A DNA stretch of 64,000 bases from assembly GCA_030765065.1 (NCBI GenBank), contig CM060984.1, positions 82,485,988 through 82,549,987 on the forward strand. Reading direction: 5' to 3'. How positions within the stretch are numbered: the first letter of the stretch is position 1; every line of letters starts with the position of its first letter. Source of the stretch: Deroplatys truncata (Eukaryota > Arthropoda > Insecta > Mantodea > Mantidae). The notes under the pieces were generated by a model. That model saw only the letters and a list, made by a program, of their open reading frames with translations, searched no databases and was not told the DNA's origin. A program made the translations under genes and the position numbers. This document shows, one piece after another, positions 2,542 through 60,677 of the stretch.

Positions 2542-2684
2542 AAACTAAAAGCCCGGGACTTAAGTATTTACAAAGAATGTAAGTTGCCATTGGGGTATGA
2601 CATCTTAATACATTTGAGATCTCCTTGTGGTTTACCGGGAAAAATGCGAGTCAGTTGGAGAATTTAATGGCGTGCCGGCATGTT

Positions 2685-2790: not shown

Positions 2791-3351
2791 AAATGACCCC
2801 TTCACCAGAAGAAGCAACGCTGATTAGATATGCGGGTGTCGGGATGAGGTTAGGAAGCACATTTACTACTAATTCCTTCCAGTTCAATGTTTCCAGCTTG
2901 CGACTATAGAGAGCACTAGTGGCTGTTTCATGTCACGGCCGCCTAAAACAACCTCTAGAGTGAAGAGACTAATATGAACAATAGGGATCTAATATGCCGT
3001 GCCCGGGAACGAGAACGAGAAAGTTAAAAGTTGGGCAACTCTTCTTTCCCGTTCCCGGAGCCCGGGAAGGCTTCTCGTCGGTTGTGAACATTCCCATTTG
3101 AATACATGTGTTTCAACTTTCTCGTCCTCGTTCTGGTTACCGTTCTCGTTGGTTGTGAACCAACCTTGAGAAGGAGGGTTGAGTGAGGTATCTGCAGTGC
3201 CCAAATGCACGTCATTATATTTATGTCAAACGTTTCTTCTGAACCAGATATTGAAATGAGATCTAAAAGTGCCATTATGGAATTATTGTCCCAAGTTGTA
3301 TTTGTCAAGTTCAGTATTTATTACTTTGGTCCATAATCATTTAACTACCAG

Positions 3352-3352
3352 C

Positions 3353-3401
<49 letters not shown>
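3352..3401. repeat. (AAT)n microsatellite
   Basis: About 16 uninterrupted AAT units, directly followed by a LINE 3'-end relic. Confidence 0.97.
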
Positions 3402-3402
<1 letters not shown>

Positions 3403-3700
3403 GACATATTAAATGAACTCAAACAGGATCACAAAACAAATAATTGAATTCTACGAAAATAGAAGTATCAAGTAGATACTATGAAGTAGATTGATGAGGT
3501 AAAAAATTACTTAATATTGGCAGGAATTACACAAGAAGATATCCTAAACAGAGATATCTTTAGAATCAATACATAAGTGAAAAGTTGACCAAGATAACAA
3601 ATCGAAGAAAAAACTGGAATATGAACAGACGAAAGAAAGAAAGCCCACAGCCAAGAATGGGAGAACTATGGATTCAAAGGAAAACAAAGAAACGGCTCTA
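3402..3700 (+). pseudogene. Relic of the 3' end of a LINE endonuclease-RT ORF
   Basis: Across frames this reads RWIDEVKN-LILAGITQEDIL and NRDIFRIN, which resembles the WxDxVxxDLxxxGIxxxDIxxRxxFR segment at the C-terminus of insect RTE-like endonuclease/reverse transcriptase proteins. No RT motif is present and the frame is broken. The match is by eye over about 40 residues. Confidence 0.35.
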
Positions 3701-5289
3701 AGTACTTTGTGTAGTCCTACATGGGTTCATTTGCAATCATAAACAGTAAATAGTGATAACGCCATACACTGGTTGTACTCTTGCGTCCTGTCACATAATC
3801 CTGATCTTTCTCACGTAGGTCAGCTGTAGGTAATCAGAGTAGTTGATAAGTGAGTGACGACAAAAGACAAAGGCTGATTAAAGAAATCTAATATGGAAAT
3901 TTTCACAAATCAGTATCAATTAATTCACTAGAAAGTAGGATGGAGCGCTAAAGGGCAGCCGAAACTTTGTCAAACTAAATTTGCCAGCAAAAGCTCGTCA
4001 GCTCGTTGGATGACCATTGTTAAATGAAGACGAAGTTAATGCAATGCCTAATGCCTACAGAGAGATCGAGAAGTACTTCCTAAATTCTTGAAGCAGGAGA
4101 ATGAATTCTATAAACATGGAATAAATTCTAGAAAGGTGTAAGGAAAAAAGTAGAATGAATGACTGGAAATTTTCAGTGAATTACTTTAGAGATATTAACA
4201 AATGCTGTGAACAAATACTGTTTTATCTTTTCTTATGATTCAGCGTGTTAATGAAAGGGATTTTGAGCGCCATAGGACTTTGTCCGTGAGTGCTACATCA
4301 GTACATGAGCGACATATTAATGGGACGCTCTTCACATGTTTTACAGAACATGCTATCTTCTGTTTTCATAGCAAATATGAATGGACAACCCATATGACCT
4401 TAGATGTTAAAGGTGTCATATGAGTGGAACAATGAATTATGAACACATAAAAATGCGAACGTCGAAAGGCTAGAACAGTTTCAAGAATTACTTATAAAAA
4501 GCTTCATTTTATGTAATTTTAATTTTATTTTCACTGCATTAATATGAATGTTTGCTTTGTATTACCGCACAAGTTTTGCGTAGCACCTTTTATTAATAGT
4601 ATATTATTTTACAAATATTAATGTATTATTAAAGAAGCTACGATATACCCCAATGTTTTAATTAATTTTATGAATAGCTTTCCATTTCAAATTGAAGTGT
4701 CCAGGCGTCCCCAAGGTGCACGCTCTGAGTCATTAAAAGAAAGATGTCCAATCGTGGCAATATAAAGGTAAAGAGCGCTTATGATCATCAGCGAAGTTGC
4801 AGACATGAATATGTTCGACACATTCGTGGTGCGGATAAAAATTAAACCTACTCTGTGGTGAATCGAACCCTCACATGACCATTGACCCATTGGCATCTTT
4901 CACGCAGGAAGGCAGATGGTCTTCAACAAGCACAGTGACAAGCTTAACGCCCACTAGAAATCTTCCGGCCAATCAGATCAAGCTGTTAAGTTCGTGGTTA
5001 CGGTTGCCTGCAGTTTAGATCGTGTATGTGTAAACAGTACGGTGGTGACGGAAGTGACTTATTTAAGGTGTGTTAACTCAGCAATAATTATAAGTAACAC
5101 GTATGTATTGTTGCAAACAGCACCTACCTCATGAATTCCGCAGGCATTATTCACTGATGGTCTCTTAGAAAGCCTGAGAGGAAGAGATAAAAAAATTAAA
5201 TTGAGTTTTATTTATGGACGCTCTTTAACTGCTGTGGTTCTTAGCGTGTCATTCTTTATTGGGCGTGAAAGGCCGGTAATTTTGCTCAG
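3701..5289. other. No recognisable feature
   Basis: AT-rich sequence with only short open frames (for example 4235-4423). I see no conserved domain, tandem repeat or RNA gene. Confidence 0.5.
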
Positions 5290-5488
5290 AGGCCTCTTTA
5301 CGTACCGCAAATCTACCACACGGGACCACCAGCTTTACTTCCTTCCGAAGGAAGCCATGCTAAGGATTTTTGCGCCCGAAAAAATCCATCGCCCTCCACC
5401 GGGTTTGAACCCGCGACCTCGGGAACTAGAGGCTAAGCATGGTAACCATCACACCACGGCGGACGACGTGAGGAATATACAACTATGT
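5290..5488 (-). mobile_element. tRNA-derived SINE (family D)
   Basis: The minus strand starts with GCCGTGGTGTGATGGTTACC (A box) and continues to CGCGGGTTCAAACCCGG (a well-paired T arm and B box). A tail follows with TTCCTTCGGAAGGAAGTAAAGC and a GGTCCCGTGTGGTAGATTTG-like block, as in widespread insect SINE tails. The tRNA-like head lacks a clean anticodon arm, and the element continues past the head, so it is a SINE rather than a tRNA gene. Confidence 0.65.
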
Positions 5489-5909
5489 ATTCCTTCCTTC
5501 GCTGTCTCCTAAAGGAGTAGCACTCCAGAAATGACAACACAGTGCAGTAACCCAATCCTTGCATCGTGTTTATATTCCGCTGCTAATGATGAAACAGGAA
5601 CGCGTGTAGTTCCTCCTGCCGAGGTTCAGTCAAGTCTTAAAATACGTTATGATGACATTCGTGATAGGCGCCATTGGGGTAACGAAGTGATCGGTAAGTA
5701 TTATCTTCAGGCGATTCGATATATGAGTAAGAGCAATGTCCTGCAACGGGCGCTAGTAAATCCAGCGGTCCATTACTTATTCTGAAATATACACACATCC
5801 TAAAACAGGTGTGTGTTTAGAGTGCTGTTAAAAATCAAACATAAAGAAAGTGGCGATAATTTTATTCATGGGATTATCCAAGCAATGCTTCCCGTAACCA
5901 GTTACTTAC

Positions 5910-6073
5910 CTTGCTAAGTTGCCAGTCAAATTCATCGACATATGGATTATCAGCTGGAAACATGAACTCGTCATCGTAATCGTCGTATTCCACTGGTGGT
6001 GCAGCTGGGGTAGGGTGTATGCATTCTTTAGCTTCGAGTTGAACACCGCTGAGCAGCACCATCACCGTTATAC
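5910..6073 (-). CDS. Candidate internal exon of an unidentified host gene (acidic, possibly secreted protein)
   Basis: On the minus strand a pyrimidine-rich stretch ending TTTATTTCATTAG is followed by 164 nt open in one frame and then AAG|GTAAGT, a perfect donor. The exon supplies two bases of a split codon and 54 whole codons, so it goes from phase 1 to phase 0. It reads ITVMVLLSGVQLEAKE, a hydrophobic stretch ending like a signal-peptide cleavage region. An acidic, aromatic part with YDDYDDEFMFPAD and DEFDWQLSK follows. I do not recognise the protein. No partner exon could be identified nearby on the same strand. An intact exon among decayed repeats and its codon-like composition favour a real gene; a chance frame remains possible. 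Confidence 0.42.
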
Positions 6074-6244
6074 CTAATGAAATAAACAAAAAACTTGAAT
6101 AATAACTAATTAACTGCTGCCGACTTAACCACTCGGTCCCCAATACAAGCCCTCAAACGCGTAACAGGAATTTAGTTACATTGTGTATATTCATATATAT
6201 TCGAGATATGGAGAATTCGAGTAGTAGATATATAATCCATCCCA

Positions 6245-6362
6245 GCATTCGCGACCTGGGAAAACCACGAAGAAACCCAAAGTCAGGGTGGCCGGTCTAA
6301 CAGCAATCGAACCCGAATGCGAACCTCAAGCCCTACCGTCTAAGCCATCCCTTTCGCTCTCT
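6245..6362 (-). mobile_element. tRNA-derived SINE (family C), 5' part
   Basis: The minus strand reads a GGATGGCTTAGACGG A-box region, a CGGGTTCGATTGC B box, and then GGTTTTCCCAGGTCGCGAATG. The last matches the GGTTTCCCAGGCGAATG block just after the tRNA-like head in the copies at 28455-28965 and 40780-41170. Confidence 0.55.
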
Positions 6363-7469
6363 GAAAATTTAATTCAGTTGGTTAAATCTTTCCCACAAGC
6401 TCCTAATTGGAGGACGAAAATCAGTTATTTCATACTGCCTTAGGTAAAACATGGTTTATTGAAACTACATGGAAGTAACCCAATAGAAATTTCTGAATTG
6501 CTTCAAGAAATGTTTGATGACTCTGGGTGACCATCCCACAAGTGAAGAGTGAGGGGCAAAAACTCACAAAAAAGAACATTTAAGGAATTTTAGGGATACA
6601 GCACAGCATGAAATTGATCATAATCCTAATACCGTTCTTATTTTATAAATATAAAAATGATTTCACTGTTATATATGTTTCAATTAAAAAGCATTATAGA
6701 GGAGGTTTTATGACGCAAAAGGGAGAAATTAGCATATCAGTTGCAGGCGTTTCCCTAAAATATTAATATATTACTGAATTTCTTTTATAAAAATAAGTTC
6801 TAAGACAAGAAAGTCCTATCCATCCATAAACTATTTCTACCTTTTTTCTATCTGCTTAACGTTAATGAGATGCCTGAACGTTTGCAGAAAACCATTTCAT
6901 TGAAAACACAATGGGGATACAGTAGACTGAGGCGATAGTCAAATATTTATAAGGAGCGGGTCGCTATACGCTGACTTTGAAATTTTACTCCACGAGAAGC
7001 AAAGAATCGCAACTTAACAGTTAAAGTATTTGACAATTCAAGCCGATAATGACGAATATCCTGAAATGTCTAATGCCACAAAACATTGCATTTGACTTAA
7101 ATTGTGTGTTTTAACGTGATCTTCATTTTTGTGCAGTATCTAAGTTTTGTCTCTCTTATGGCTTACCAACTATACAAAAACATGGAAATTCACTTGGAAA
7201 GAAGCGGACTTCACAGGATCGTAGCAAATTCAACATATACATTTTAGTTGTTATGTAAACATTTTAAATATATGTCATTTTAATCCAAATCATTACAGGC
7301 ATAGCAAATAAAAAATAAGTAAACATTTTCCATGAAAAGGGTAGTTTGGCTTGCGAAAAAGTTCTTGAAAATGTTTCTGTTATACCTTTGGAAGATACTG
7401 AACTATATGAAATATGACACTAACAACCTTTTTCCTTTTCAGTTTTACTGCTTACACACACGCGCGCGC
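6363..7469. other. No recognisable feature
   Basis: AT-rich sequence. A short stretch around 6900-6960 (GGGATACAGTAGACTGAGGCGATAG and following bases) faintly resembles the dominant repeat family, but is too short to call. Confidence 0.45.
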
Positions 7470-40429: not shown

Positions 40430-40775
40430 AAATACCCTAAATATCCTCAGTCCCTGTCATTCTTAGCATTTCTCTCCGAATTCCCTATCTCTTCCCGTAT
40501 ATACGCATTTTTTAGTCCTCAACACCCTCCTATCCAGTATAAAGCCATATTCCTCCTTCAACATCCGTCTAACCTAGCATTTCTCCTTATATTCCCTGTT
40601 TCAGCCGTATGAACCCATATTCCGTCCTTCAATCCCTGTCTAGCCTGGCATCTCTCCTCGTATTCCCTATCTCTGCTATATAAACGTCTTTTCTAGTCTC
40701 CTACCCCACCTAGACTAGCACCTCTCCATGGTTTCCTATCTCTTCCATATAAAACGCATATTCTAACCTTCAACC
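40430..40775 (+). repeat. Detached block of the Polinton-like element's outer satellite
   Basis: About five units of the same roughly 70-bp repeat that fills 59440-60640 (motifs TTCCCTATCTCTTCC, ATATAAACGCAT, GTCTAGCCTAGCA, CTTCAACC), in the same orientation as that right arm. It is bounded on the right by a SINE at about 40780. No other part of the large element is adjacent, unless the degenerate satellite at 39416-40429 is a further part. Confidence 0.8.
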
Positions 40776-44795: not shown

Positions 44796-45059
44796 ATCAA
44801 ACTCAGGTCCTTTGGAATATCTTCGTGTTTCACGGAACCCTCCCACAGCCTCTTGTATCGTGATGTAGAGCGACAGCCTCTTAACTAAGGATACAACCAC
44901 CATTCATATCTCAGGCAATTCCATAATTGCAGCTAAAACTCGTTAAAAAAGTAAATACATAGGAACCCAAAATCAAATGTGTATAAGAAACTATAGCTAG
45001 TGAAACAAATAGAGAGCGGTAGATGCAATAGTAGGATTCAGGGTCACTTTTTAGGCATA

Positions 45060-46310
45060 TATGGGAAAGGATAGGGAAAACGAGGGTAGAAGCCAGGTTG
45101 AGAGAGGTTTCAAGGAGGAAAATGGATTTATATGGGAGAGATAGGGAATACGGCGACGATACTATGCTAGACAGAGGTTGCAGGAGGGAAATACGTTTAT
45201 ATGGAAGAGACAGTGCAGAGGTATTGGGCTAGACAGAGGTTGAGCAGTAGAGTATGGTTTATATGAGAGGTATAGGAAAACGAGCAGATGTGTAGGGCTA
45301 GACAGAGGTTGAGGAGTAGAGTATGCGTTTATAGAGAAAAATAGGGAAAACGAGGAGAGCTGTTAGACTAGACAGGGCGTGAAGGGTAGAATAAACGTTT
45401 ATATGAGAGAAATAGCAAACCGAGGAGAGGTATTAGGCTAGGAGAGTTTGAGTATGCATTTATAAGGAGAGACGAGAAAACGGAGAGAGATCCTATGCTA
45501 GAATAGACAGATGTTAAATGTAGAATGTGTTTTATATGGGTTAGATAGGAAACCAAGGTGAGATACTCAGCTAGACAGGAGGCAGGAGCGCTTTATGAGA
45601 GGTAGGGGGTACGAGGAGAAGTGCTAGGCCAAACAGATGTTGAGGAGTAGAGTATGCGTTTATATGGAAGAGATAGGGTTTACGGGGAGAGATGCTAGAC
45701 TAGACAGAGGTTGAGAGTAGAGTATTGCGTTTATATGTATGAGAGGTATAGGAACAGGAGGAGAGGAGTTAGGCTAGACAGATGCTCGAAATATGAGCTT
45801 ATATGCAGGAGAGATAGGGAATACGAGGGGAGGAGCTAGACTAGTTAGGACTTAAAGGATAGAATACGGCTTTTATATGGGAGAGATAGCAAACCGAGGA
45901 GAGGTATTAGGCTAGGAGGGTTTGAGTATGCGTTTATAAGCAGAGACGAGAAAACGGAGAGAGACCCTATGCTAGGAGAGAGTTGAAGGAGAGGGAAATG
46001 TGTTTTAAATGGGAGAGATAGGGCCTTCAAGAGGAAGTGCTAGGCCAGACAGATGTTGAGGAGTAGAGTATGCGTTTTTATGGAAATGATAGGGATTGCG
46101 GGGAGAGATGGTAGACTAGACAGAGGTTGAGAGTAGAGTATGCGTTTATATGTATGCGAGGTATAGGAACAGGAGGAGAGGTGTTAGGCTAGACAGATAC
46201 GAAGGAGTAGAAGTGTGAGCTTATATACAGAAGAGATAGGGAATACGAGGGGAGGAGCTAGGCTAGTTAGGATTTGAAGGGTAGAATATGCTTTTTATTT
46301 AGGAGAGTGA
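45060..46310. repeat. Roughly 70-bp satellite with a 474-bp higher-order repeat (left arm)
   Basis: About eighteen degenerate units share GAGATAGGGAATACGAGG, GCTAGACAGAGGTTGAG and AGAGTATGCGTTTATATGG. AAACCGAGGA recurs at 45417 and 45891, with the surrounding units matching over more than 150 bp, so several units were amplified together as a 474-bp block. The frames at 45368-45556 and 45845-46030 translate this block twice and are not genes. Confidence 0.88.
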
Positions 46311-46386
46311 AAACGACTTTAGACGCAATCGTCACGGAAAGGTGTTTACTGACAATGTTAGAGCGCTAATTCTAGACATCTCCATC

Positions 46387-47090
46387 ACGTAACCCACTAA
46401 CACAAAAAGATAACCCACTCACGCTAAAAAGGTAACCCACTCACGCAAAAAGGCAACCCACTCACGCAAAAAGGTAGCCCACTCACGTAAAAAGGTGACC
46501 CAATCACGGAAAAAGGTGACCCACTCACGCAAATGGGCGACCCAATCGCGTAAAAAGGTGATCCCCTCACGTAAAAGGGTGACCCACTCACGAAAAAGGT
46601 GACCCACTTACGTAGAAATGTGACCCACTCACGGAAAAAAGTGATCCTCTCACGGAAAAGGGTGACCCACTCACGGAAAAAAGGTGACGCACTCACGCAA
46701 AAAGGTGACCCACCAACGGAAAAAGGTGACCCCCTCGCAGCAATAGGCGACCCACTCACGGAAAAAGGTGAACCACTCACGCAAAAAATCAACCTACTCA
46801 CGCAAAAAGGTAGCCCACTCAGGTAAAAAGGTGACCCACTCACGCAAAAAGGTGACCCACTCACGCAAAAAGGTGACCCACTCACGCAAAAGGGTGGCCC
46901 ACTCGCGTAAAAGGTGCCCCCTCTTACAAAAAGGTCACTCACGAAAAAAGTGACCCACTCACGCAAAAGGTAACCACTCACGGAAAAAGGCGACCCACTC
47001 ATGGAAAAAGCCGACCCAATCACGGAAAAGGTGACCCACCCACGAAAAAACGTGACTCACTCACGTAAAAAGGTGACCCACTCACGCTAA
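46387..47090. repeat. 21-bp tandem satellite (left arm)
   Basis: About 33 units of GTGACCCACTCACGCAAAA plus AG, with variation mainly in the A run and at CGC/CGG/CGT. Because 21 is a multiple of 3, frames stay open: the 199-residue frame (46424-47023, minus strand) is only a CVSGSPF-like heptad repeat, and plus-strand frames read HSRKKVT. I see no evidence that it is translated. Confidence 0.95.
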
Positions 47091-47865
47091 AGGATAAGTA
47101 ATTCAGATAGTATCACAGGGTGGGACAGATATCGGGAAGTGGGTATAGCATAGTTCCGTATGATTCGACAGCTAATTCAGATAGTATCGTAGGTATTTAG
47201 GATAATTCAAGTATCATAGGTGTTTAGAGTCACTCAGCTTGTATCACAAGAGGTTAGATTCCAGGGGCAGGGCGTATCATAGCTGTATATCATTTCACAG
47301 GCAATTCAGCTAATTTAGCTAGTATCACAGGAGGATATAGATTCCAGGGGTTGGGTATTACATAGTTTCGTATTTCACAGGTAATTCAGAAGGTATCGTA
47401 GGTATTTAGGATAATTTAAGTATCATAGGTGTTTAGAGTAATTCAGTTAGCATTGCAGGAGGATAGGTTCCAGGACGGGTTATAACATATTTCGTATTTT
47501 ACAGATAGTTCATGTAATATCGTAAGTATGGTGTAATCAGCATAGTTTCAATATTCGTGGTAATATCGATCAGCGATTTGTATAACAGTTATTTAAGGTA
47601 ATTGCAGCTGATTCAGATTGTATCAAAGGTATTTTAGTGATTTTAACAGATAATTCAACTAGTATCAGTAATATTTAGGGTAAACCAGATAGCATCACAG
47701 GTGGTCGTGCTAATTTCGAGCAGGGATTAATATCAGAGCTATTTAAGGTAATTTCACATGATTCCGGAAGTATCACAAGCATTTAAGTCATTTTAACAGA
47801 TAATTCAGATAGTGTCACAGGTATTCATGGTAATATAAAGAGTAATTAGATTATAAACGGTTTTC
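47091..47865. repeat. Irregular TCAGATAGTATCACAGG repeats (left arm)
   Basis: Recurring AATTCAGATAGTATCACAGG, TATTTAGGGTAATT and TTTCGTATTTCACAG motifs at irregular spacing. The same order occurs inverted at 58155-58829 and 52780-52976 in the right arm. Confidence 0.85.
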
Positions 47866-48207
47866 ATCCCACGTTACAACACTTTATATACTTTTTTAAA
47901 TCTTACAAACCTTTTTATATGTAAAACATCTAGTGTGCGAGGCGGAGAGGAATAAACTGCATATAGGTTTACAAATTGAAAACTTTTGCGTCAACATACC
48001 TTTATTTTAGTTTGTCCTAGGTGCCTCTCACCTTTTATCTAGGCTTGAGAGTAGCACTACGATTGTTCCTAATGGCAGGGATAACACCTCCCCTTCCATC
48101 TTCTTCTTTCTTCATTAAGCGTCTGCTAAGTGTATACACTGCACACTGATAAACTTAAGTTTTTAAGACTGTAGACTCACGAGAAGATCTTCATCTTTGA
48201 CTTACAT

Positions 48208-49165
48208 TCTCTTAAGCACTGTTTGTAATACTATAATGCCCATACGCATAGGTAGGTATAGCATCCTCGACAATAACTCTTTTATCATCAAAGGGACTCA
48301 ATGTAGTTTTATTCACTTGCACTGCTGGTAACAGCGTGCTTTCGTGATAGGATTAGATTCATGGAAATTTTGGCTCCCTTCTAGGTTTATGTTTAATTCT
48401 TCAAGTAATTAATCAAAATCTTATATTATTTATTCGAGGAAAGGCTATATCTGGAGCTCCAAGTATTAAAGGAATTAATCAATTACCAAATCCACCAATT
48501 ATAATGATGATTTCACAGGTTTTAAGACAGTCTGTATAGCTGTCAAACGTAATGTACTGCTTAATAACGCTACGTTTTATAACTTTAATCTTTTTTATCA
48601 TCGAGGCCTTGAATATCTAAGGCATACATCTTAGGTCCTTGTCCATCAAAGCGTAGGATGATTTTGCTATTAGCCTCATCTTGAAATTTTCCAAGCACCT
48701 TCTTGTTTAGAGCTGAATGACATGTATGGTTTACAGGGTAATCATCAGCTGTATACAGATGCTCAAGAAAACGTAGCTTGTCCTGGTACACATCTTCAGT
48801 TGTCACACGATGAATGAATGTATCAGTGTCCATATACATAAGCTTCAGGTTTTTAGCTCCGTAATATGGTAACACATCATAATGATAGTGGTACATTAAT
48901 GTCTTAGAATGTCCAACACACTCATACCAATGTATATAGGCTTGTTGAACACAATCTGACGAGAAGCCATATGTACAGCAGCTAGATTAGCAGCATATAT
49001 CGTCCTATCGATAAACGTAGGCTTGGCGATCAGCTTCTCTAGAGTCTTCTCATTTGTCACCAGTCGTATATCCATACAGTTACGCAGGTTGTCCATAGTT
49101 TTTCCAAACATGGCGTTGTTAAAGAGCTTGTAGCGATCCTTCTCGAAGTAATTAGAGAGGCTTAG
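48208..49165 (-). pseudogene. Protein-primed DNA polymerase B, 3' half, left-arm copy
   Basis: The minus-strand frames 48896-49186 and 48585-48896 carry KLFNNAMFGKT (polymerase motif B region), PIYIGMSVLDI and YMDTDTF (motif C, with the two catalytic Asp residues). KKVLGKFQDEA and GPKMYALDIQG follow. The two frames meet at a frameshift near 48896. Further on, a 143-bp mitochondrial insert (48363-48505) interrupts the gene before the C-terminal end (DDKRVI-like, YAYGHYSI) near 48208. Some positions intact here are broken in the other copy (for example after LEH) and vice versa. In some protein-primed polymerase elements this gene lies next to the inverted terminus; here its 3' half is part of it. 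Confidence 0.85.
48363..48505. pseudogene. NUMT: fused cytb and inverted cox1 fragments
   Basis: Positions 48363-48408 on the plus strand translate (invertebrate mitochondrial code) as NFGSLLGLCLILQVI, the N-terminal region of cytochrome b. Positions 48409-48505 on the minus strand translate as [20 protein letters not shown], then FPRMNNMSFWL, a core segment of cytochrome c oxidase I. Both frames are intact. The right arm lacks all of it: there CTGTGAAATCATC continues directly into polymerase sequence (AGAACGCCCATGAATC, 51160-51180), and about nine of those bases are missing here. This is nuclear mtDNA captured at a break after the arms formed. Confidence 0.92.
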
Positions 49166-51323
49166 AAGATTTGTACATATTACCAATCATTGCTAAGCCT
49201 CTGAAACTTGCGGACTAACAGCAAAGGTATTTTGAGTCTTCTACGGCATGCTACCTGTGTGCAAAACCCTTTACAGAAGAGAACTACAAAGTACGCGACC
49301 TTGATCACATCAGCGGTGAATATCGTGGAAGTCTTTATAATGAATGCAATATAGCCTGCAAAACACCTAAATATATCCCCGTCTTCATGCATAGCCTTAG
49401 CGGATATGACTATCATGTCATTGTTAAGGAGTTGGGGTGTACAAGTGAACGTGTGGAGGTAATTCCTAGCTCTGAAGAAAGCTATAGATATCTCATTCAT
49501 CAAGTATGTAGGAGATATAAAGCTTCGGTTTGTGGATAGCTTTCGATTCCTCAGTACAACCTTGGAAAAGTTGGTAAAAAATCTAACCTCATATCCTGAA
49601 ACACTAAAGTACTTTGGAGAAGACAAATTGAAGTTGATGAGTCGTAAGGGAGTATTTCCATATGATTTTGTCACGTCATGGAATGTTTTGAACGAGAACT
49701 GCTTGCCTCCCAAGGACTCCTTCTACAATAGGTTAAATGAAGAAGAATTAGTGATGCTGACTACGATCATGCTAGAAATGTAAGGGAGCTGTTTAGTGTT
49801 AGAAACTTGGGCGAGTACAGCGATCTCTACTTAACTTCAGATATGCTTCTTCTAGCTGATGTCTTTGAGACGTTCAGACAGCAAACCCTCAAAACGCACA
49901 AAGTCGATCCGACCCATTATTTTACCTCTCCAGGACTTAAATGGGACGCCATGTTACTGTATACAGGAATTAAGCTGGAGCTGTTACAAGATTATAATCA
50001 ACTACCCATGGTGGAATCAGGTATAAGAGGAGGTTTCTGCCAAGTTTCCCATCGGTATGCAGAGGTTAATAACACATATATGGAGAAGTTTTATCCGTTG
50101 AGACCATCCCAATTTATCAAATACGAGAACGCCAATACCCAATATGGGTGGGCAATGTGTCACGCCCTTCCTTATGGTGGATTTCAGTGGGTTTCGCCTG
50201 AAGAAATCAACTTAGAAAGACTACAAGAAGATAATCCTCATGGTTACATATTAGAAGCTGATATCGAATATCCTGCAGAACTTCACGGTCTACACAACGA
50301 ACTACCTTTCCTGCCTGAGTGTATGAAACCGTTGGAATCATCTACAAAGAAACTGATATCTCATCTCGGACCTCGAAACACGTATGTAGTGCATTACATG
50401 GCTTTGAAGCAAACTCTTAATCATGGACTACGACTAACAAAATTCCATCGTGTGCTACAATTCCGACAGTCTCGGTGGATAAAAACCTTATGTGGAATTT
50501 AACAACCGGCTACGACAACAAGCTGCAAATGACTTCGAGAAGGTGCTCTACAAGCTCTTTAACAACGCCATGTTTGCAAAACTATGGAGAACCTGCGTAA
50601 CCGTATGGATATACGACTGGTGACAAATGAGCAGACTCTAGAGAAGCTGATCGCCAAGCCTACATTTATCGATAGGACGATATATGCTGCTAATCTAGCT
50701 GGTGTACATATGGCCTCTCGTCAGATTGTGTTCAACAAGCCTATATACATTGGTATGGGTGTATTTGGACATCTCCAAGACATTAATGTACCACTATCAT
50801 TATGATATGTTGTTACCATATTACGGAGCTGAAAACCTGAAGCTTATGTATATGGACACTGATTCATTCATTCATCGTGTCACAACTGAGGATGTGTACA
50901 AGGACAAGCTACGTTTTCTTGAGCATGTATACTGCCGATTACCCTGTCAACCATATATGCCATTCAGCTCTAAACAAGAAGATGCTTGGAAAATTTAAAG
51001 CTGAGGCTAATAGCAAAATCATCCTACGCTTTGTTGGACTACGACCTAAGATGTATGCCTTAGATATTCAAGGCTCGACGATAAAAAAGATCAAACGTAG
51101 CGCTATTAAGCAGTACATTACGTTTGACAGCTATACAGACTGTCTTAAAACCTGTGAAATCATCAGAACGCCCATGAATCTAATCCTATCACGAAAGCAC
51201 GCTGTTACCACAGTGGAAGTGAATAAAACTACATTGAGTCCCTTTGATGATAAAAGAGTTATTGCCGAGGATGTTATAACTACCTATGCGTATGGGCATT
51301 ATAGTATTATAAACAGTGCTTAA
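49166..51323 (+). pseudogene. Protein-primed DNA polymerase B, central part plus right-arm 3' half
   Basis: Type B polymerase of the organellar/viral protein-primed group. Visible in order: CYLCAKPF and DLDHISGEYRGSLYNECNI (about 49245-49350), FMHSLSGYDYHVIVKEL (exonuclease region), then 49532-49783 and 49807-50502 (ADVFETFRQQ, YTGIKLELL, GIRGGFCQVSHRYAEVNN). YENANTQYGWAM is motif A, where the family has Asp; an Asn stands at that position here. KLFNNAMF (motif B) and YMDTDSF (motif C) follow, and the C-terminus ends at 51323 after YAYGHYSIINSA. At least six frameshifts or stops break it. The N-terminal third is absent: sequence left of about 49205 belongs to the arm junction. Confidence 0.88.
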
Positions 51324-51575
51324 GATAATGTAATTCGAAGATGAAGATTTTCTCGTTAGTCTACAATCTTAAAAACTGATGTTTATCCGTGTGGAGTGTA
51401 TACACATAGCAGACGCTTGATGAAGAAAGAAGAAGATGGAAGGGGAGGTGTTAACCCTGCCATTAGGAGCAATCGTAGTGCTAGTCTCAAGCCTAGATAA
51501 AAGGGGAGAGGCAGCTAGGACGAACTAAAATAAACGTATGTTGACGCAAAGCTTTTTAATTTGTAAAGCTATTAG
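51324..51575. other. Polymerase downstream region, right arm
   Basis: Mirror of 47990-48207 in the left arm; contains GATGGAAGGGGAGGTGTTA, CTAAAATAAACGTATG and TGACGCAAA blocks found in both arms. No convincing gene. Confidence 0.75.
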
Positions 51576-52665
51576 GTTAGATTAGATTGTATTCTGTGAG
51601 TTCACTAGCAGCCATAAAGGCTTGTGAACATAGAACATGTCAAGGAAATGTACAAAAATTATATATAAACATAAATATTACATAGAATATGGAACATTTG
51701 AAATAAAATACAAATACTATATGCGTGTTAAGGAAATGTACAATAAAGTTACATATATACATAAATATTACATAGTATACAGAACATTAAAATAAAATAA
51801 AGACATATTATATACAAAATGAAAAAAATCAAGTGTAATTTTGTACAGAGTTGAATACCTCCTTACTGTTATAAGGTTAACATACGTATAGGCAAGAACA
51901 GTTATTTTAACATTCACTAGGATTTTACCTTTGTTCTATTTGATTTGTAATGCATAGCATTTACTGTCAGTTCTTAATATACATACATTTAAATAGCTTC
52001 ATTAATTCTAGAGCAGATATCAAATATAACTGGCAATTGTCATTAATATTTTCTAATACTACTTACAGAGCTATATAAGTATTATCATTAGGATAATTTG
52101 TCATTCAGATAATCTTGTACAGAATAATATGCTTTTGAGCATAGGTACTCTTTAACAGCAGTTTTAAAGACATTGAAACTGTCAACGTTTCTCTTAAGAT
52201 CATTAGGGAGAGTATTAAATATTTTTATGGTCTCGTAATATACACCTTTTTGGAAGCAAGAAAGCTTTGTACTGGGACGATGGATGTTACCCTTTTGTCT
52301 AGTGTTTATCTCATGAATTTCCATGTTTGTAATAAATGTGGTTCGATTGTATACATAGAATTTTAAGATTGAAAATATATGCATGCAAGGTAGGGTTAAT
52401 AACTTTAGTCTTCTAAAAAGATGTTTGCAAGAGTGTCTGCTCTGAGTGCTGGAAATGATTCTTATAACCTTCTTTTGCATGAGGAATATTCGTTGACTTT
52501 CTACCGAATTTCCCCAAAATAATATTCCATATTCAATGATAGAGTTAAAATATGCATAGTATACTAATTTAAGTGTATCTATAGAACTGACATTTACCAA
52601 TGCTCGGATAGCATAACATGCAGAACTGAGTTTGGGTATGATATACCTAATGTGAACTTTCCATA
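51576..52665 (-). mobile_element. 5'-truncated LINE (CR1/jockey-like, no RNase H seen)
   Basis: Absent from the left arm, where the two flanking sequences join (TGTAAACCTATATGCAGTTTATTCC on the minus strand). The minus-strand frame reads LSSACYAIRALV, LKLVYYAYFNSIIEYGILFWG, QKKVIRIIS and NTRQKGNIHRPS, the region downstream of the RT palm in CR1/jockey-type elements. It runs to a stop near 52090. The minus-strand 3' end is a short TAATC-type repeat (51576-51590 on the plus strand: TAGGTTAGATTAGATTG). No RT catalytic box remains. The first ten or so residues of the 202-residue frame (MCEAERNKLN) come from arm sequence, so the frame is a fusion and not a gene. Confidence 0.75.
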
Positions 52666-53374
52666 TATTCAGTTTATTCCTCTCCGCCTCGCACACTAGC
52701 TGTTTAACATATAAAAAGGTATGTAAGGTTTAAAAAAGTATATAAAGTGTTGTAACGTGGGATGAAAAATGTTTATAATCTAATTACTCTTTATATTACC
52801 ATGAATACCTGTGATACTATCTGAATTATGCGTTAAAATGACTTAAATACTTGTGATACTACCAGAATGATGTGAAATCACCTTAAATAGCTCTGATACG
52901 AATGCCTGCTCGAAATTAGCAAGACCACCTGTGATACTATCTGGTTTACCCTAAATATCAATGTACTAGTTGAATTCCTCCCCTAGGAGCCACAGGACCT
53001 TGTAGTTGGTGGGGAGGCTTCCGTGTACCAGTGATTTACTAAGCTGTGCTGGTAGAGGTACTCATGCCAGAGAGGTTCGTAATGAGGTACCAGACTAAGA
53101 AGTGGCTCAACAGAAAATCCAACCCAAAGGGTCTCCCAGTTGGAGAACCTTGAGGGACTCCCAGCTGGAGGACCTTCCAGGGGCTCTGGTCCACCCAATC
53201 CAAGGTGGGAATGCATCGTGCCGAGGGATGAATGGCACTGGGGTGGTAAAAAATGCAGTGTCGTGAACGATCTTTTCAGGGCACCAGGCGACACCCTGAA
53301 GTAATTAGCCTTCCCAATATATACAGGGCTCTGTATTGGGTGACTTTTATTTCCCTGGTACTCGTGGGACCAAT

Positions 53375-54412
53375 ATGGACCAAAATAAAATAAATACCAC
53401 CAAGGCGGGTGAGAGAGACTCTCCAGTTGAGAGAAATCTCTCACCTGACAAAGAAAAGTCAAGTGACAGAGACTCTCCAGCAGAGAGAAATCTGTCACTA
53501 GATAAACAAATGGGTGCAACAGCATCTGGAATTAATAGAATGCACCTGGACACTAAGAAGTTGTCAGGGGCAGCTAGAAGAAGAATAAAAAAAGCTAAGA
53601 AAATGAGTGAGGGCACAGGCAATGTAAACCCACAGAGTAAAGGGGTGGTGGTCCGTACTGATCCAGGGACTTCTAAAAGAACCAGGACAAGTGTGGATAC
53701 TCCTCCTTCGGATAAAGCCAAACCTGTTAAGAGGCCTAGGGGCACTGAACCTGGTGTCACTTACAGGGAAGCTTTGGCCGCTTTCAAGATGGCAATTGTG
53801 GAAGAGTCCTATCCTGAGAGAAAGCTGACTGGGGAGGACATTCGACCCATTCAGGCTGAGATTCTGAGGAAGATAGATGAGGCGCCAACCAGTGAATCTC
53901 TACCTAAACTCAGGTCCTTTTCTCTACAGGATGGGGCTCTGATATATTATTGTGATGATGAGCAGTCATGTAACTGGCTCCAAAAACATATTCAGGGAGC
54001 TAAAATCAAGGAGAGATTAGTTCTCAAAGTAGTAGATCCAAAAGATCTACCTAAGCCAGTCAAGGTGGCCCTTAAGACTCGGGACATTACAACTGATGAT
54101 CCTAAGGTGCTGCTAAGATGCATTCAAAGATTAAACCAGGAGCTGAATATAGAGCACTGGAAAATCATTGATAAGCAGGCAGACTCCTCTGGTCAACGCC
54201 TAGTCCTAATGGTGGACCAAGAGTCTGCTACGAAGATAAAGGAGCTTGGCATGTCGGCCTATACCGGGGTAGACAGGGCCCTTTTTAAGATCCTGTCTGA
54301 CCCGGAGGGGAAGGCAGTAGCAGACAAAGCGAAGAAGGCAGGCAGCGATGGCGGAGACAGTCCGGAGACGATGATAGGGGACTCTGGAGGATCCGCATCG
54401 GGTACTGCTTAA
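53375..54412 (+). CDS. LINE ORF1 protein with DUF4780-like domain
   Basis: 345 residues from ATG at 53375; the longer frame from 53336 begins at TTG, so this ATG is preferred. The N-terminal 130 residues are Ser/Lys/Arg-rich with a repeated DSPVERNLS/DSPAERNLS motif, plausibly RNA-binding. The C-terminal part (YREALAAFKMAIVEE, LTGEDIRPIQAEIL, DGALIYYCDDEQSCNWLQ, LKVVDPKDLPKPVKV) matches the insect DUF4780 type by recall. No CCHC zinc knuckles, which ORF1 of many related LINEs has. It overlaps nothing and ends 26 bp before the ORF2 ATG. The frame is intact. Role: presumably RNA chaperone or nucleoprotein of the retrotransposon. Confidence 0.85.
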   Translation: MDQNKINTTKAGERDSPVERNLSPDKEKSSDRDSPAERNLSLDKQMGATASGINRMHLDTKKLSGAARRRIKKAKKMSEGTGNVNPQSKGVVVRTDPGTSKRTRTSVDTPPSDKAKPVKRPRGTEPGVTYREALAAFKMAIVEESYPERKLTGEDIRPIQAEILRKIDEAPTSESLPKLRSFSLQDGALIYYCDDEQSCNWLQKHIQGAKIKERLVLKVVDPKDLPKPVKVALKTRDITTDDPKVLLRCIQRLNQELNIEHWKIIDKQADSSGQRLVLMVDQESATKIKELGMSAYTGVDRALFKILSDPEGKAVADKAKKAGSDGGDSPETMIGDSGGSASGTA

Positions 54413-54438
54413 GGTAAGTGTTGTGGGTTAATGCAATT

Positions 54439-57400
54439 ATGAAAATAGTTCAAATTAACTTGCAGCACTGTAAGGCAGCTTCAGCCATTCTCAGTAAGAG
54501 ACTTGTTGAAGACAATGTTGATATTGCTCTCATACAGGAACCTTGGCTCTTCAGAGGTTCAATTAGAGGGCTCAGTTGTACTAAGGGCACTATATATAGA
54601 CCTAGTAATAATAATCCAAGATCATGTATTTATGCTAAGAATTGGATAAACGCATTGCTTCTTACTGAGCACTGTTCTAGGGATGTAACTACAATCCAAA
54701 CAATAGTGGAGGAGGCAGGAGAGAGAAGAGTTTTAATACTCTCTTCTGTCTACCTCCCTTACGAAGACTCTGATCCACCATCGATAGCGGTGAGGGACCT
54801 TGTGACCCAATGCGGAGAGAATGGAAAGGAGTTAATCCTGGGGGTTGATGCCAATGCACACCACACACTGTGGGGGAGCACTGATATCAATCACAGAGGA
54901 GAAAAGTTAATGGAGTACTTGGTGAGTACAAACCTTAATATTCTAAATCGAGGTAATGAACCAACCTTTGTAACTTTGCTAAGGGAGGAAGTCATTGACA
55001 TAACGATAGGGACTAATATCATTGAGAACCTAATTTCAAGTTGGCGTGTATCATCGGAGATCACTCTCTCTGATCATAGATGCATATGCTTCAATATTAA
55101 AGCACAAGTCACTCTACCAGTGATTTACAGAAATCCGAGGAAAACTGACTGGGACGGTTATAGACGAGATCTATCAGCATTGACATCGGGTATCTCAAGG
55201 AACATTCGTTCGATATTGGATGTGGAGTTTGCCGTTGATGAAATACAACGGTCAATTCTCCTATCCTATTATCAAAATTGTCAGCCTAAGGTAGCTTACT
55301 CGCCAAAAGGCTTGTGCCTTGGTGGACTAAAGAGTTAAGCAGACTTAGGAAGAAAGCAAGGAAATTATTTAGACTTGCAATAAGAACTGGTGATTGGGAT
55401 TCATATAGACAAGCCCTCACCAATTATAACAAAGAAATACGTAAAGCCAAAAGGATTTCGTGGAGGGAGTACTGCCAGGGGATGGAGAATGTTCCCAGCA
55501 GTGCAAGATTCATGAAACATATGGCAAAGGGTGTTAAAAAAATTGTGAGCACTATTAAACTGCCTGATGGCACGTACACACAGTCTGGTTCTGAGACGCT
55601 CCTGCAACTTGCGAGGGCTCACTTTCCAGACTTTAAGGTAGCCAATGACAGCAATTCTGTGAAGGGGCAACCAAATCTGGACCATCTTTCTTTGGACAGA
55701 GAGGATTGGAACCTAATCAGGAGCGTAGTCAATGTCACTAAAATACGATGGGCTGTCAAGTCGTTCGGACCATATAAATCGGCAGGCCCAGATTTAATCA
55801 TCCCTGCATTTCTACAATATGGTATTGATTCAGTTCAATCCCTACTTTGTGGTATTTTTAGAGTTTGTCTAGCTTATGGATATATACCCATGGCTTGGAG
55901 ACAAACAAAGGTGGTGTTTATACCTAAACCAGGGCGTCCTAGTTACGCCCAGGCTAAGGCTTATCGCCCTATAAGTCTCTCCTCTTTTATGCTTAAAACT
56001 TTGGAGAGGTTAGTGGATAGGCACATTAGGGATTACGTTTTAATGGAACATCCATTAAACAAGTACCAATTTTCCTATCAAACAGGGAAATCAACGGAAG
56101 CAGCACTTCATCAAGTGGTCTCGACTATTGAGAAGGCGCTTAATACCAGAGAAATAGCCATTGGTGCTTTTCTTGATATTGAAGGTGCGTTTGACACGAC
56201 ATCTTGTGATGTCGTGACGAACGCCTTCTATGGACACGATGTACCTTCACTTCCTTGTGAGTGGATACGTTTTGTCTTACAACGTAGGAAGATAACCATG
56301 AATCTATGTGGGGAGACGCTGGATGTGTCCACGGAGAGGGGCTGCCCGCAGGGGGGTGTTTTATCACCCCTGCTATGGAACCTTGTAGTGGGCACACTTC
56401 TTTGCGCACTCAATAGTGATGGTTACTTCACAGTAGGTTTTGCAGATGATATTGCAATAATCATAACAGGTAAATTTCCTCACACAGTTTCTCAAGTGCT
56501 ACAAATGGCGCTTGAGAAAGTGGAAGCTTGGTGCAAGATGAATAATCTAACTGTTAATCCAAGCAAAACAGTAGTGGTACCCTTCACCAGGAGAAGGGGG
56601 CCTGATTTAACCAGACTCTCTCTCTCTTTGGTGAGGTAGTGCCCTATTCAACACAAGTTAAATATCTTGGGCTTGTTTTAGACAAGAAATTAACTTGGAA
56701 ACATCATATGGAATTATGTATTATCAAAGCCTACAGAGTCTTTTGGACTTGTAGAGGTATGCTTGGCAAGACATGGGGTCTGAAACCTAGCATAGTGTAT
56801 TGGATATACACTGCTATGGTGAGACCTATATTCTCTTATGCCGCACTGATGTGGTGGCCTAGAGTTAATTTAGAGGTGTGCAGAAAGGAACTCTGTAAAT
56901 TACAGAGGACCTTCTGCATTTCAATTATGGGAGCCTTCAAAACTACTCCAACTGCGGCTATGGAGATGCTGTTTGGGCTCACACCTCTCCACTTATGGAT
57001 GAAGGCAGAAGCCATGATCGCGTATCACCGTATTTGTCGCCAAACCAAAGTGTCTAACATTGGACATATTAATCATCTCAAGCTTCCTTGGGATAAGAAT
57101 GTACAACAGATACTCAACATGGGGACTGACATTCTTGAAACAATATTCAAGTTTGATTTGAAATTTACGGTATCCTATCCACAGCGGAGTGAATGGGAAA
57201 GACTGGTAAAACCTCACAATAACAAAGGCCCAATCTGGTATACTGATGGTTCTAGAACCAAATCGGGAACGGGGGCTGGGCTTTACGGTAATGGTACCAA
57301 GATTTCTTATAGTCTTGGTACCTTAGCTACAGTTTTCCAGGCTGAGGTTTATCCAATCCTAGCCAGTGTCATGGAAAGCATTAAAAGGAGATATAAGAAT

Positions 57401-58057
57401 AGAAGTGTTCTTATCCTCTCAGACAGTCAAGCTGCTCTTAAAGCACTTGAATCACCATCAATAAAATCAAAGCTCGTCTCAGAATGCCGGGAATCCTTAG
57501 TGGCACTGGCTGAACACAATAAGGTTCAACTTATGTGGGTGCCAGGACATATAGGTATACCAGGCAATGAGAAAGCAGATGAAGCAGCCAAGATTGGCAG
57601 TGAAATCCCATTTTTTGGTCCGGAGCCTGTACTGGGAGTGTCCTACAGACCAGTGAAACAGGCTATTAAGTGCTGGGCTCAAGCAGAACACAAGAACTAC
57701 TGGAACTCCATTGAGGGTTGCAGACATTCCAAGTTGTTCATTACAGACCTGGATAACAGCCGGGCAAAATATTTGCGCGGTCTTAGTAGAAGAAGACTTG
57801 CATGGGCAACAGGATTCATTACAGGACACTGTGCCCCAAAGTTTGATCTATACAGAATGGGATTGTTTAACAACCCTATCTGTAGTAGATGTCTAGAAGG
57901 AGATGAGACTGTTACTCATCTACTATGTGATTGCCCTGCTCTTGCGAGTCAAAGAGCAAGTATTTTTGGCAGTCACTTTCCAAAGATAGATGAACTATCG
58001 AAAGCCTCAGTTAGCAGTCTGGTTAAGTTCATATCGAGCAACAGACTACTTAACTGA
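54439..58057 (+). pseudogene. LINE ORF2: endonuclease, reverse transcriptase, RNase H; two frameshifts
   Basis: ATG at 54439 is preferred over the GTG-initiated frame from 54418. The endonuclease (54439-55110) shows QINLQHCKA, IQEPW, GVDANAHHTLWGS and SDHRCI. A 1-nt shift in an A run near 55305 leads into WWTKELSRLRKKARKLF. RT shows PKPGRPSYAQAKAYRPISL, FLDIEGAFDTT, QGGVLSPLLWNL and the FADD box at about 56437. A second shift in a CT run near 56625 leads to KYLGLVLDKKLTWK. RNase H has YTDGS (57239), AEVYP, LSDSQAALKAL and WVPGHIGIPGNEKADEAA, so all four acidic residues are present. The end has CSRCLEGDETVTHLLCDCPA (CCHC). Only the two slippage-type indels break it, so the insertion is recent. 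Confidence 0.92.
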
Positions 58058-58154
58058 TGAAAGGGGGGATGCGCAATAGATCTTAAGGTCGCAGTGCTTG
58101 GGCATAAAACCCACCCCTTCTCAAACTAGAACTAGAACTAGAACTAGTTGAATT

Positions 58155-58829
58155 ATCTATTAAAATCACTAAAATACCTTTGATACAACCTGAATCAGCT
58201 GCAATTACCTTAAATAGCTATTATACAAATCGCTGATCGAAATTACGACGAATATCTGTGAAACTATGCTGATTACCCCATACTTACGATATTACCTGAA
58301 CTATCTGTGAAATACAAAACTATGTTATAACCCACCCTGGAACCTATCCTCCTGTAATGCTAACTGAATTACTCTAAACACCTATGATACTTGAATTATC
58401 TTAAATACCTACGATACCTTTTGAATTACCTGTGAAATACGAAACTATGTAATAACCAACCCCTGGAATCTATCGTCCTGTGATACAAGCTGAATTAACA
58501 TAAATGTCTATGATACTAGCTGAATTGCCTGTGAAATCATACACAACTATGGTGCAGTCGGTCTCTGGAATCTAGCCTCCTGTGCTACTAGCTAAATTAG
58601 CTTAAATCCCACGATACTAGCTAAATTCCTGTGAAATCATATACAGCTATGATACGCCCTGCCCCTGGAATCTAACCTCCTGTGATACTAGCTGAGACAC
58701 TCTAAAAACGTATGATACTTGAATTATCCTAAATACCTACGATACTATTTGAATTAGCTGTGAAATCATACTGAACTATGCTTACTTCCCGGAATCTGTC
58801 CTACTCTGTGATACTATCTGAATTACTTA
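58155..58829. repeat. Irregular TGATACTATCTGAATTA repeats (right arm)
   Basis: Inverse counterpart of 47091-47665; motifs CCTGTGATACTAGCTGAATT, GAAATCATAC and CCTAAATACCTACGATAC recur. Confidence 0.85.
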
Positions 58830-59357
58830 TCTTTTAACGTGAGTTGGTCACCTTTTTTGCGTGAGTGGGTCACCTTTTTCCGTAAGTGGGTCGCCTTTTT
58901 CCGTGAAGGGGTCACCTTTTTCCGTGAGTGGGTCACATTTTTGCGTGATTGCGTCACCTTTTTCCGTGAGTGGGTCATTTTTTGCGTGAGTGAGTCTCCC
59001 TTTTGCGTGAGTGGTTCACCTTTTTACGTGAGTGGATCACCTTTTTACGTGAGTGGGTCACCTTTTTCCATGAGTGGGTCACCTTTTTACGTGAGTGGGT
59101 CACGTTTTTGCTTGAGTGGGTCACCTTTTTGCGTGAGTGGATCACCTTTTTACGCGAGTGGGTCACTCTTTTGCGTAAGTGGGTCATCTTTTTGCGTGAG
59201 TGGGTCACCATTTTGTGTGAGTGGGTCACCTCTTTCCGTGAGTAGGTCACCTTTTTACGTGAGTAGGCTACCGTTTTGCGTGAGTGGTTACTTTTTTGCG
59301 TGAGTGGGTTACCTTTTTAGCGTGAGTGGGTTATCTTTTTGCGTGAGTGGGTTACGT
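58830..59357. repeat. 21-bp tandem satellite (right arm)
   Basis: About 25 units of TTTTTGCGTGAGTGGGTCAC plus C, the reverse complement of the left-arm array (about 33 units). The unit number therefore differs between arms. Long frames here (58839-59303; 58975-59250) are heptad by-products. Confidence 0.95.
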
Positions 59358-59439
59358 GATGAAGATGTTAGAATTAGCGCTCTAACGTTGTCGGTAAACA
59401 GCTTTCCGTGACGATTGCGTCTAAAGCCGTTTTCACTCT

Positions 59440-60640
59440 CCTAAATAAAAAGCATATTCTACCCTTCAAATCCACACATTTCTACTCCTTCGTATCTGTC
59501 TAGCCTAACACCTCTCATCCTGTTCCTATGCCTCTCATACATATAAACGCATACTCTACTCTCAACCTCTGTCTAGTCTACCATCTCTCCCCGCAATCCC
59601 TATCTTTTCCATATAAACGCATACTCTACTCCTCAACATGTCTGGCCTAGCACTTCTCCTTGAAGGCCCTATCTCTCCCATATAAAACACATTTCCCTCT
59701 CCTTCAAATCTCTCCTAGCATAGGGTCTCTCTCCGGATTCTCGTCTCTCCTTATAAACGCATACTCAAACTCTCCTAGCCTAATACCCCTCCTCGGTTTG
59801 CCATCTCTCCCATATAAAAGCCGTATTCTATCCTTCAAGTCCTAACTAGTCTAGCTCCTTCCCTCGTATTCCCTATCTCTCCTGTATATAAGCTCATATT
59901 TCTACTCCTTCAGTATCTGTCTAGCCTAACACCTCTCCTCCTGTTCCTATACCTCTCATACATATAAACGCATACTCTACTCTCAACCTCTGTCTAGTCT
60001 AGCATCTCTCCCCGTAATCCCTATCTTTTCCATATAAACGTATACTCTACTCCTCAACATCTGTCTGACCTAGCACTTCTCCTCGTATCCCCTACCTCTC
60101 ATGAAGCGCTCCTGCCTCCTGTCTAGCTGAGTATCTCTCCTTGGTTTCCTATCTAACCCATATAAAACACATTCTAACTTTAACATCTGTGTATCCTAGC
60201 ATATGATCTCTCTCGGTTTTCTCGTCTCTCCTTATAAATGCATACTCAATTCTCTCTCTTAGCCTAATACCTCTCCTCGGTTTGCTATTTCTCTCATATA
60301 AAGGTTTATTCTACCCTTCAAGCCCTGTCTAATCTTACAGCTCTCCTTGTTTTCCCTATAAACGCACACTCTACTCCTCAACCTCTGTCTAGCCCTACAC
60401 CTCTGCTCGTTTTCCTATACCTCGCATATAAACCATACTCTACTGCTCAACCTCTGTCTAGCCTAACACCTCTCCATTATCTCTTCCATATAAACGTATT
60501 TGGCTCCTTCAACCTCTGTCTAGCATAGTATCGTCGTCGCATTCCCTATCTCTCTCATATAAACCCATTTTCCTCCTTGAAAGCTCTCTCAAGCTGGCAT
60601 CTACCCTCGTTTTCCCTATCCTTTCCCATATATGCCCAAA
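59440..60640. repeat. Roughly 70-bp satellite (right arm)
   Basis: Reverse-complement counterpart of 45060-46310, with units containing CCTATCTCTCCCATATAAA, CATACTCTACTCCTCAAC and CTGTCTAGCCTAACACC. The 59660-59845 frame is the same higher-order block that appears twice in the left arm. Confidence 0.9.
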
Positions 60641-60677
60641 ATTGGCCCAGAATCCTGCTATTGTATCTACTGAGAGC

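Follow-up and report, generated by a model that had tools for sequence, protein, structure and literature searches.

The window analysed here is a stretch of 64,000 nucleotides (C10:82485988-82549987) of the 4.29-Gb genome of the mantis Deroplatys truncata, and the element under study, called W in the following, occupies window positions 45012-60677. We interpret W, with a probability of roughly 0.7, as an old, centre-deleted member of a non-autonomous family derived from Polintons, whose full-length form is a near-perfect palindrome and propagates as a palindrome. In most young copies the full-length palindrome measures about 17.2-17.5 kb. From the outside to the inside, the half-element consists of the terminus, a 70-bp satellite, an ATPase stub, a 21-bp satellite, a unique zone, an outward-facing polymerase B gene, a spacer and the fold. 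Spread of the family as palindromes is well supported, and in the copies tested new copies enter new sites as whole palindromes with 6-bp duplications. The family is best called a non-autonomous Polinton derivative, given its Polinton-type ends and duplications, its incomplete gene set and a shared gene remnant.

As an earlier note on this DNA had read, W is bounded by GAGAGC at both outer edges. Read inwards, the left end is GGTAGATGCAATAG and the right end AGTAGATACAATAG; the left end, GGTAG, differs from the AGTAG-type start. The matching inverted termini and mirrored arms of about 4 kb described in that note were recovered by BLAST as inverted matches in unbroken order (45019-47663/60670-58143, 47652-47965/52976-52664, 47963-48364/51572-51172 and 48505-49153/51165-50528), the match keeping the same order across about 4.1 kb. 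The continuous inverted diagonal expected there from 45018 to 49165 appears over 45019-49153; it is broken in the right arm, to which later insertions (51573-52663 and 52977-58142) have added 6.26 kb, and in the left arm by a filler at 48365-48504. With gaps ignored, arm identity is 94.1, 90.7 (21-bp satellite), 93.8, 93.0, 93.0 and 92.0% in successive zones, the last of which takes in a tail beyond the BLAST match; outside the 21-bp satellite it is therefore about 92-94%. With gaps counted, the outer 1.9 kb of the arms are 87.8% identical. The Kimura two-parameter (K2P) distance between the arms lies between 0.062 and 0.084 outside the satellite and is roughly even, slightly higher inwards, which fits both arms having about equal age. 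The features of W are listed below; h denotes the half-element coordinate, counted inwards from base 8815 of L034 (one half of the copy at C16:307.9M, called 307), which lies 72 bp inside the right end of that copy.

45012..45017, no strand: target site duplication GAGAGC, left, identical to 60672-60677
60672..60677, no strand: target site duplication GAGAGC, right, identical to 45012-45017
45018..49153, plus strand: left palindrome arm with outer 1.4 kb, satellites, unique zone and inverted polymerase B 3' half (BLAST and zone identity)
45217..46266, plus strand: subterminal satellite of about 70 bp, left arm (repeat analysis)
46309..46404, plus strand: decayed N-terminal stub of a Polinton packaging ATPase, left arm (tblastn, 65.6% over 32 amino acids to the ATPase open reading frame (ORF) of L039, E 6e-7)
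46389..47091, plus strand: 21-bp satellite GTAACCCACTCACGCAAAAAG, left arm
48505..49153, minus strand: inverted copy of the polymerase B 3' half, left arm (ORFs, BLAST)
49156..49192, minus strand: remnant of the deeper left arm, h 5041-5077, marking a 1.3-kb left-arm deletion at 49154/49155
49193..49194, no strand: fold point, turn about 29 nt in half-element coordinates (inverted h 5041-5077, then forward from h 5048)
49219..49536, plus strand: polymerase B piece, Endonuclease VII-like domain (PF02945, E 3e-4, under the curated cut-off)
49741..50499, plus strand: polymerase B piece, DNA_pol_B_2 (PF03175, E 6e-5, under the curated cut-off)
50528..51572, plus strand: right arm, polymerase B 3' half and adjoining zone (BLAST, zone identity)
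52664..52976, plus strand: right arm, continued (BLAST)
58143..60671, plus strand: right arm to the right terminus, with unique zone, 21-bp satellite (58831-59352) and 70-bp satellite (from 59495)
59357..59434, minus strand: ATPase N-terminal stub, right arm (tblastn, 80.8% over 26 amino acids, E 3.5e-7)

An isolated stretch resembling the 70-bp satellite of the terminal inverted repeats (TIR) at 66-80% was seen at window positions 40464-40775, with no surrounding arm.

The left arm of W reaches h 3733 (49153) and then jumps, in unchanged orientation, to h 5041-5077 (49156-49192), and from 49195 the sequence proceeds outwards from h 5048. This order shows that W was once a palindrome, its fold lying at about h 5.07 kb and its turn being very short. 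The 1.3-kb deletion in the left arm accounts for the apparent single-copy centre of 1.37 kb in W. The idea that a 1.35-kb centre formed the loop of the fold had to be given up, as the fold lies near 49193, 49156-49192 being left-arm remnant and the right arm starting at 49195. Among the matches listed for a probe of the W junction (best 40 of 3,414 candidates), no other copy spans it. W probably descends from a longer palindrome that lost its centre, and shortened copies with unique folds, W included, fit a loss of the palindrome centre before or after insertion. The fold of W may stem from copying or from breakage in the middle of a longer palindrome; that a protein-primed polymerase first produced it by switching template, as the earlier note proposed, is a conjecture.

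Genome-wide DNA searches scored the best 40 of 1,042 to 4,703 candidates, and all copy numbers given here are therefore lower bounds. The matches listed for the junction probe include 17 inverted pairs of polymerase B stretches, of which 11 are spaced 6,848-6,885 bp on 9 contigs and the remaining six more closely, each at a different distance. A young copy at C5:147100582-147118095 (C5:147) has a length of 17,514 bp, the duplication ATTTTT and identical terminal 200 bp. Its 2.4-kb centre mirrors itself at 97.9%, the middle of this centre lies at most 1 bp from the midpoint of the element, and the palindrome of the fetched centre leaves a loop of about 73 nt. Adjoining the fold, and mirrored on its opposite side, is a tandem array of units of about 416 bp (L067, C5:147108150-147110550). 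All 40 scored matches to an end probe from C5:147 are identical across 401 bp, and 32 of these matches can be joined into 16 pairs measuring 15,649-17,545 bp from end to end. Exact 6-bp duplications, all different, flank the element at 16 of 16 sites, and AGTAGGATAT (AG...CT, AGTAG-type) stands at both ends in each of these copies. A centre probe produced 40 scored full-length matches that include 14 inverted pairs; the spacing is 1,974-1,980 bp start to start in 12 pairs and wider in two. Nine of the 16 young pairs were examined inside, the seven others being known from their ends. Six pairs show centred internal folds (C5:147, C4:83, C6:149, C2:39.9, C1:270 and C1:240); of the other three, C5:79.6 (C5:79.59M) has a displaced centre, C5:92.97 gave only a displaced centre match and C4:165 only a match in one arm. 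Single, unpaired matches were found at 5 of 22 loci besides W (junction probe), 8 of 24 (end probe) and 12 of 26 (centre probe).

In the young copies tested, both arms carry the same variants. For C6:149.60M and C2:39.89M, stretches of 120 bp sampled at 7.57 kb from either end are perfect reverse complements of each other (117/117 and 119/119 aligned bases, respectively); between these elements two sites differ, and each variant is present on both arms. The distances from the centre probe to the two ends are 7,398 and 7,396 bp at C1:270.3M, 7,399 and 7,395 bp at C1:240.7M, and 7,568 and 7,567 bp at C5:147.1M, so that the arms mirror each other in a length difference of about 170 bp as well. 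Such mirrored variants mean that the arms of the tested elements were copied together, and the origin of both arms of a copy from one template before insertion is accordingly well supported. The fold itself is also shared: its stem is common to C5:147, 307 and 519, and to 347a and 76 as far as the centre edge, and the loops of 307 and 519 resemble each other when read in the same orientation, a similarity reached in 0 of 500 shuffles.

Among the matches listed for a TIR probe (best 40 of 4,329 candidates scored), ten opposite-strand pairs were found besides W. Nine of these were fetched; the pair at C16:215174860/215212012 (37 kb) and three pairs from a second TIR search were excluded from this set. 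All nine fetched relatives are long inverted repeats of one half-element. The earlier proposal of a family that spreads as palindromes gains support from these relatives and from the young copies, and the search it suggested for further copies with 6-bp duplications did find them, exact in 16 of 16 young copies. The ten older copies including W have exact duplications in five cases, matches at five of six positions in three and no match in two (182 with 4/6, and 347b with 3/6 unless a one-base indel is allowed); those of 182, 347b and 307 were judged by eye. The full fold depth (h about 8.2-8.5 kb) is reached in 307, 347a, 519 and 76. An internal deletion of h 4000-6817 is common to 519, 76 and 182, with the same breakpoint in five of five arms where it is visible, and is present on both arms in 519 and 76. 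The nearest relative of an older arm was its own mate for 14/16, 13/14 and 9/12 arms in three zones. Divergence between the arms amounts to 5-10% in W, 519, 347a and 307 and to about 1-3% in 76, 430 and 182. Contig C16 (707 Mb) is rich in older copies, with 23/40 and 25/40 scored matches in the two TIR searches as counted by eye; young copies on C16 account for 0/40 scored matches in the end-probe and centre-probe searches, of which ties ordered by contig may explain a part.

The polymerase B piece at 49741..50499 has 252 relatives at E values up to 0.001 (best 1.8e-76), and the family B DNA polymerase of L034 in copy 307 matches PF03175 above the cut-off (1.7e-7). Apart from a weak match to DUF4293, polymerase B with its Endonuclease VII-like part is the sole recognisable gene among the half-element ORFs scanned. 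The ATPase stub of about 27 residues ends just short of what we take to be the P-loop and ties the family to Polintons. Assignment of W to the Polinton-like elements holds, given its 6-bp duplication, AGTAG ends, polymerase B and ATPase stub. The statement that no integrase, ATPase, protease or capsid gene is left has to be modified for the ATPase, whose stub is present in both arms, and stands for the other three in the ORFs scanned. Pfam detected no retroviral-type integrase in the ORFs of at least 55 amino acids from L034, L028 and L067 (46 of 52 scanned) or among ORFs of at least 120 amino acids (30 of 68 scanned). In the half-element ORFs scanned there were no protease, capsid proteins or complete packaging ATPase beyond the stub, and no match to a P- or Mutator-type transposase; a PDB sequence search gave no result. 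A DUF659 match among the older copies sits within an insertion in L032.

Complete ATPase frames occur elsewhere in the genome, with 38 matches listed, 35 of them lacking an inner stop (best 150 of 1,207 candidates). ORFs next to them encode a phospholipase A2 domain and, below the cut-off, Adeno_PX and an adenovirus protease. The stretches L037-L066 are canonical Polinton gene blocks of at least three nucleotide groups, two of which are 93.6-97.9% alike within the group; most of them combine an open ATPase frame with a phospholipase A2 domain and with a protein of weak similarity to the N-terminus of the T7 tail fibre.

Summed for each codon position of polymerase B, differences between arms number 141/126/106, with no excess at third positions, and those between elements 1417/1257/1855, with such an excess in the sum (36 pairs, non-independent). 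This pattern indicates constraint on polymerase B that acted before insertion but ceased afterwards. Together, the mirrored variants, the grouping of arms and the codon pattern are best explained if the arms were copied from a single template before the element inserted and then decayed neutrally.

These observations have to be weighed against other origins of the palindromes. Each could have arisen anew when a still undiscovered Polinton, itself not palindromic but equipped with the same ends and polymerase B, folded back. The matching arms within an element and the shortened copies of differing fold depth would follow from this, canonical Polinton genes occur in the genome, and the loop of C5:147 is without similarity to those of 307 and 519. 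We nevertheless regard it as unlikely: full-length copies have a common fold stem, the 307 and 519 loops are similar and run the same way, spacing is near-constant in 12/14 centre pairs and 11/17 polymerase pairs, and by eye no TIR match among those listed lies within 100 kb of any ATPase match listed. If the palindrome were instead inherited, its arms might be held alike by gene conversion, which chromosomal palindromes are known to undergo, rather than by copying from one template; the low divergence of the arms in the older copies 76, 430 and 182 would agree with this. The arms of W, 519, 347a and 307, however, have drifted apart by 5-10%, roughly evenly along W and with no third-codon excess, so that conversion did not keep them alike, and even very young copies, whose ends are identical, already show mirrored variants. 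The chances of this explanation are accordingly slim.

A rearrangement of W alone after insertion, by TIR-anchored gap repair that copied the right half of a normal Polinton into its left half, would leave the ends and the 6-bp duplication intact. It would need the same event at every locus, as nine of nine fetched relatives are palindromic and young copies have centred folds; being very improbable, it was set aside in view of the palindromic structure at independent sites. Palindromic chimeric reads exist and could in principle create such structures during assembly. At 16 of 16 young sites, however, the two ends run into different flanking DNA and the 6-bp duplications match; longer comparisons show the arms to be about 1-10% different, and the contigs are chromosome-sized. 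The chance of an artefact is accordingly negligible.

Several points also weigh against propagation of the family as an inherited palindrome. Besides the divergent loop of C5:147, the old copy 307 is asymmetric, with its fold 226 bp off the midpoint; trees leave the arms of W and of 399 without clear pairing, and those of 347a are not sisters in the tree of the polymerase zone. Pairs within close groups (399/W/307, 347a/347b and 519/76/182) lack a clear third-position excess, the between-element codon sum rests on non-independent pairs, and the codon result comes from copies other than the youngest. Polymerase B could have been under selection in a relative that is not palindromic and has escaped notice. 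Finally, no hairpin or extrachromosomal form was observed, nor was a source of the integrase found.

For propagation as a palindrome, the probable mechanism is a snap-back hairpin. Protein-primed strand-displacement synthesis would free a self-complementary single strand; since a strand displaced from a perfect palindrome can pair with itself, it would fold into a hairpin that has just one primed end. Copying from this one open end round the turn would restore the palindromic duplex and mirror every mutation, and would need no second template. The new palindrome would then be inserted by a Polinton integrase supplied in trans. Once integrated, the arms decay neutrally and the centre often disappears, W being an example. 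Copying of a hairpin would account for the mirrored variants, for the near-exact symmetry measured in three young copies and for a fixed fold with a short loop. Tentatively, and at somewhat less than even odds, the family may represent a Polinton lineage turned hairpin replicon, in which a folded strand of 8.7 kb with one protein-primed end would give rise to a 17-kb palindrome with two outward polymerase genes. Both arms would be renewed from one template in each cycle, the integrase would be borrowed from canonical Polintons, and the lineage may still be active.

W has also been damaged by later insertions and by filler DNA:

51573..52663, no strand: later insertion with a reverse transcriptase (RT)-like ORF on the minus strand, absent from the left arm (RT-like label by inspection, with no Pfam match)
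52977..58142, plus strand: later retrotransposon without long terminal repeats (non-LTR) with DUF4780 gag, endonuclease, RT and RNase H (Pfam), 12-bp duplication ACTAGTTGAATT
48365..48504, plus strand: 140-bp chimeric mitochondrial filler in the left arm, a cytb piece followed by a reverse cox1 piece, with no right-arm counterpart

The retrotransposon RT comes closest to an unnamed ENA protein (89% over 77%); among named proteins, one from Periplaneta americana matches best (67% over 69%). Translated with table 5, the invertebrate mitochondrial code, the filler reads NFGSLLGLCLILQ, and its reverse strand gives a reading of 21 residues; the genes are presumably cytb and cox1. Nested in copy 182 is a second palindromic element of another family (L024:3309 to L025:3411, C4:182218758-182228811) of about 10 kb. 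Its ends read AGTAGTATAAG and its 6-bp duplication is AGCCAG; the arms, about 4.55 kb long and 93-98% alike, enclose a centre of about 0.8 kb. When scanned one at a time, three of its ORFs had no Pfam family match.

Self-complementary genomes are known as snap-back or inverted-dimer forms of protein-primed or hairpin replicons, namely in adenovirus deletants and self-complementary adeno-associated virus (AAV). With these the palindromes have in common a self-complementary genome with origins at the outer ends only; those are virus or vector forms, whereas here a palindrome family is inherited in the genome. Mitochondrial protein-primed linear plasmids are, to our knowledge, neither integrated with 6-bp duplications nor palindromic. 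What they share with the family is polymerase B, inverted ends and few genes (excerpts of PMC10583447). Intact vertebrate Mavericks comprise 12.7-24.6 kb with 6-bp duplications, end motifs (AG)3 and (AGT)2, and inverted repeats of 46-1,447 bp (mean 402), according to excerpts of PMC8097293; general background on Polintons is found in parts of PMC6431247 and PMC2836005. The palindromes agree with Polintons/Mavericks in their 6-bp target duplications, AGT-type ends, length of about 17 kb, polymerase B and ATPase stub. They differ in inverted repeats that make up half the element (about 8.7 kb) with no long single-copy gene centre, in doubled, outward-facing polymerase B copies, and in that integrase, protease and capsid were not found in the half-element. 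Foldback/Galileo elements also have long, internally repetitive inverted termini but, as far as the excerpts of PMC3573991 and PMC3169594 go, a P- or Mutator-related transposase in place of the 6-bp duplications, Polinton-type ends and polymerase B seen here. In the literature surveyed at title and abstract level, mostly open-access and with few bioRxiv preprints, no palindromic Polinton family was found.

Long palindromes are usually unstable. Despite this, a 17-kb palindrome appears to be the multiplying unit here, with identical ends at unlinked sites. The integrated, mirrored arms keep a record of how the element was copied, as each variant shared by both arms stands for one round of copying, and a replication intermediate of Polintons thereby becomes testable from genome sequence. 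Furthermore, the family suggests a route from a virus-like element to a polymerase-only parasite.

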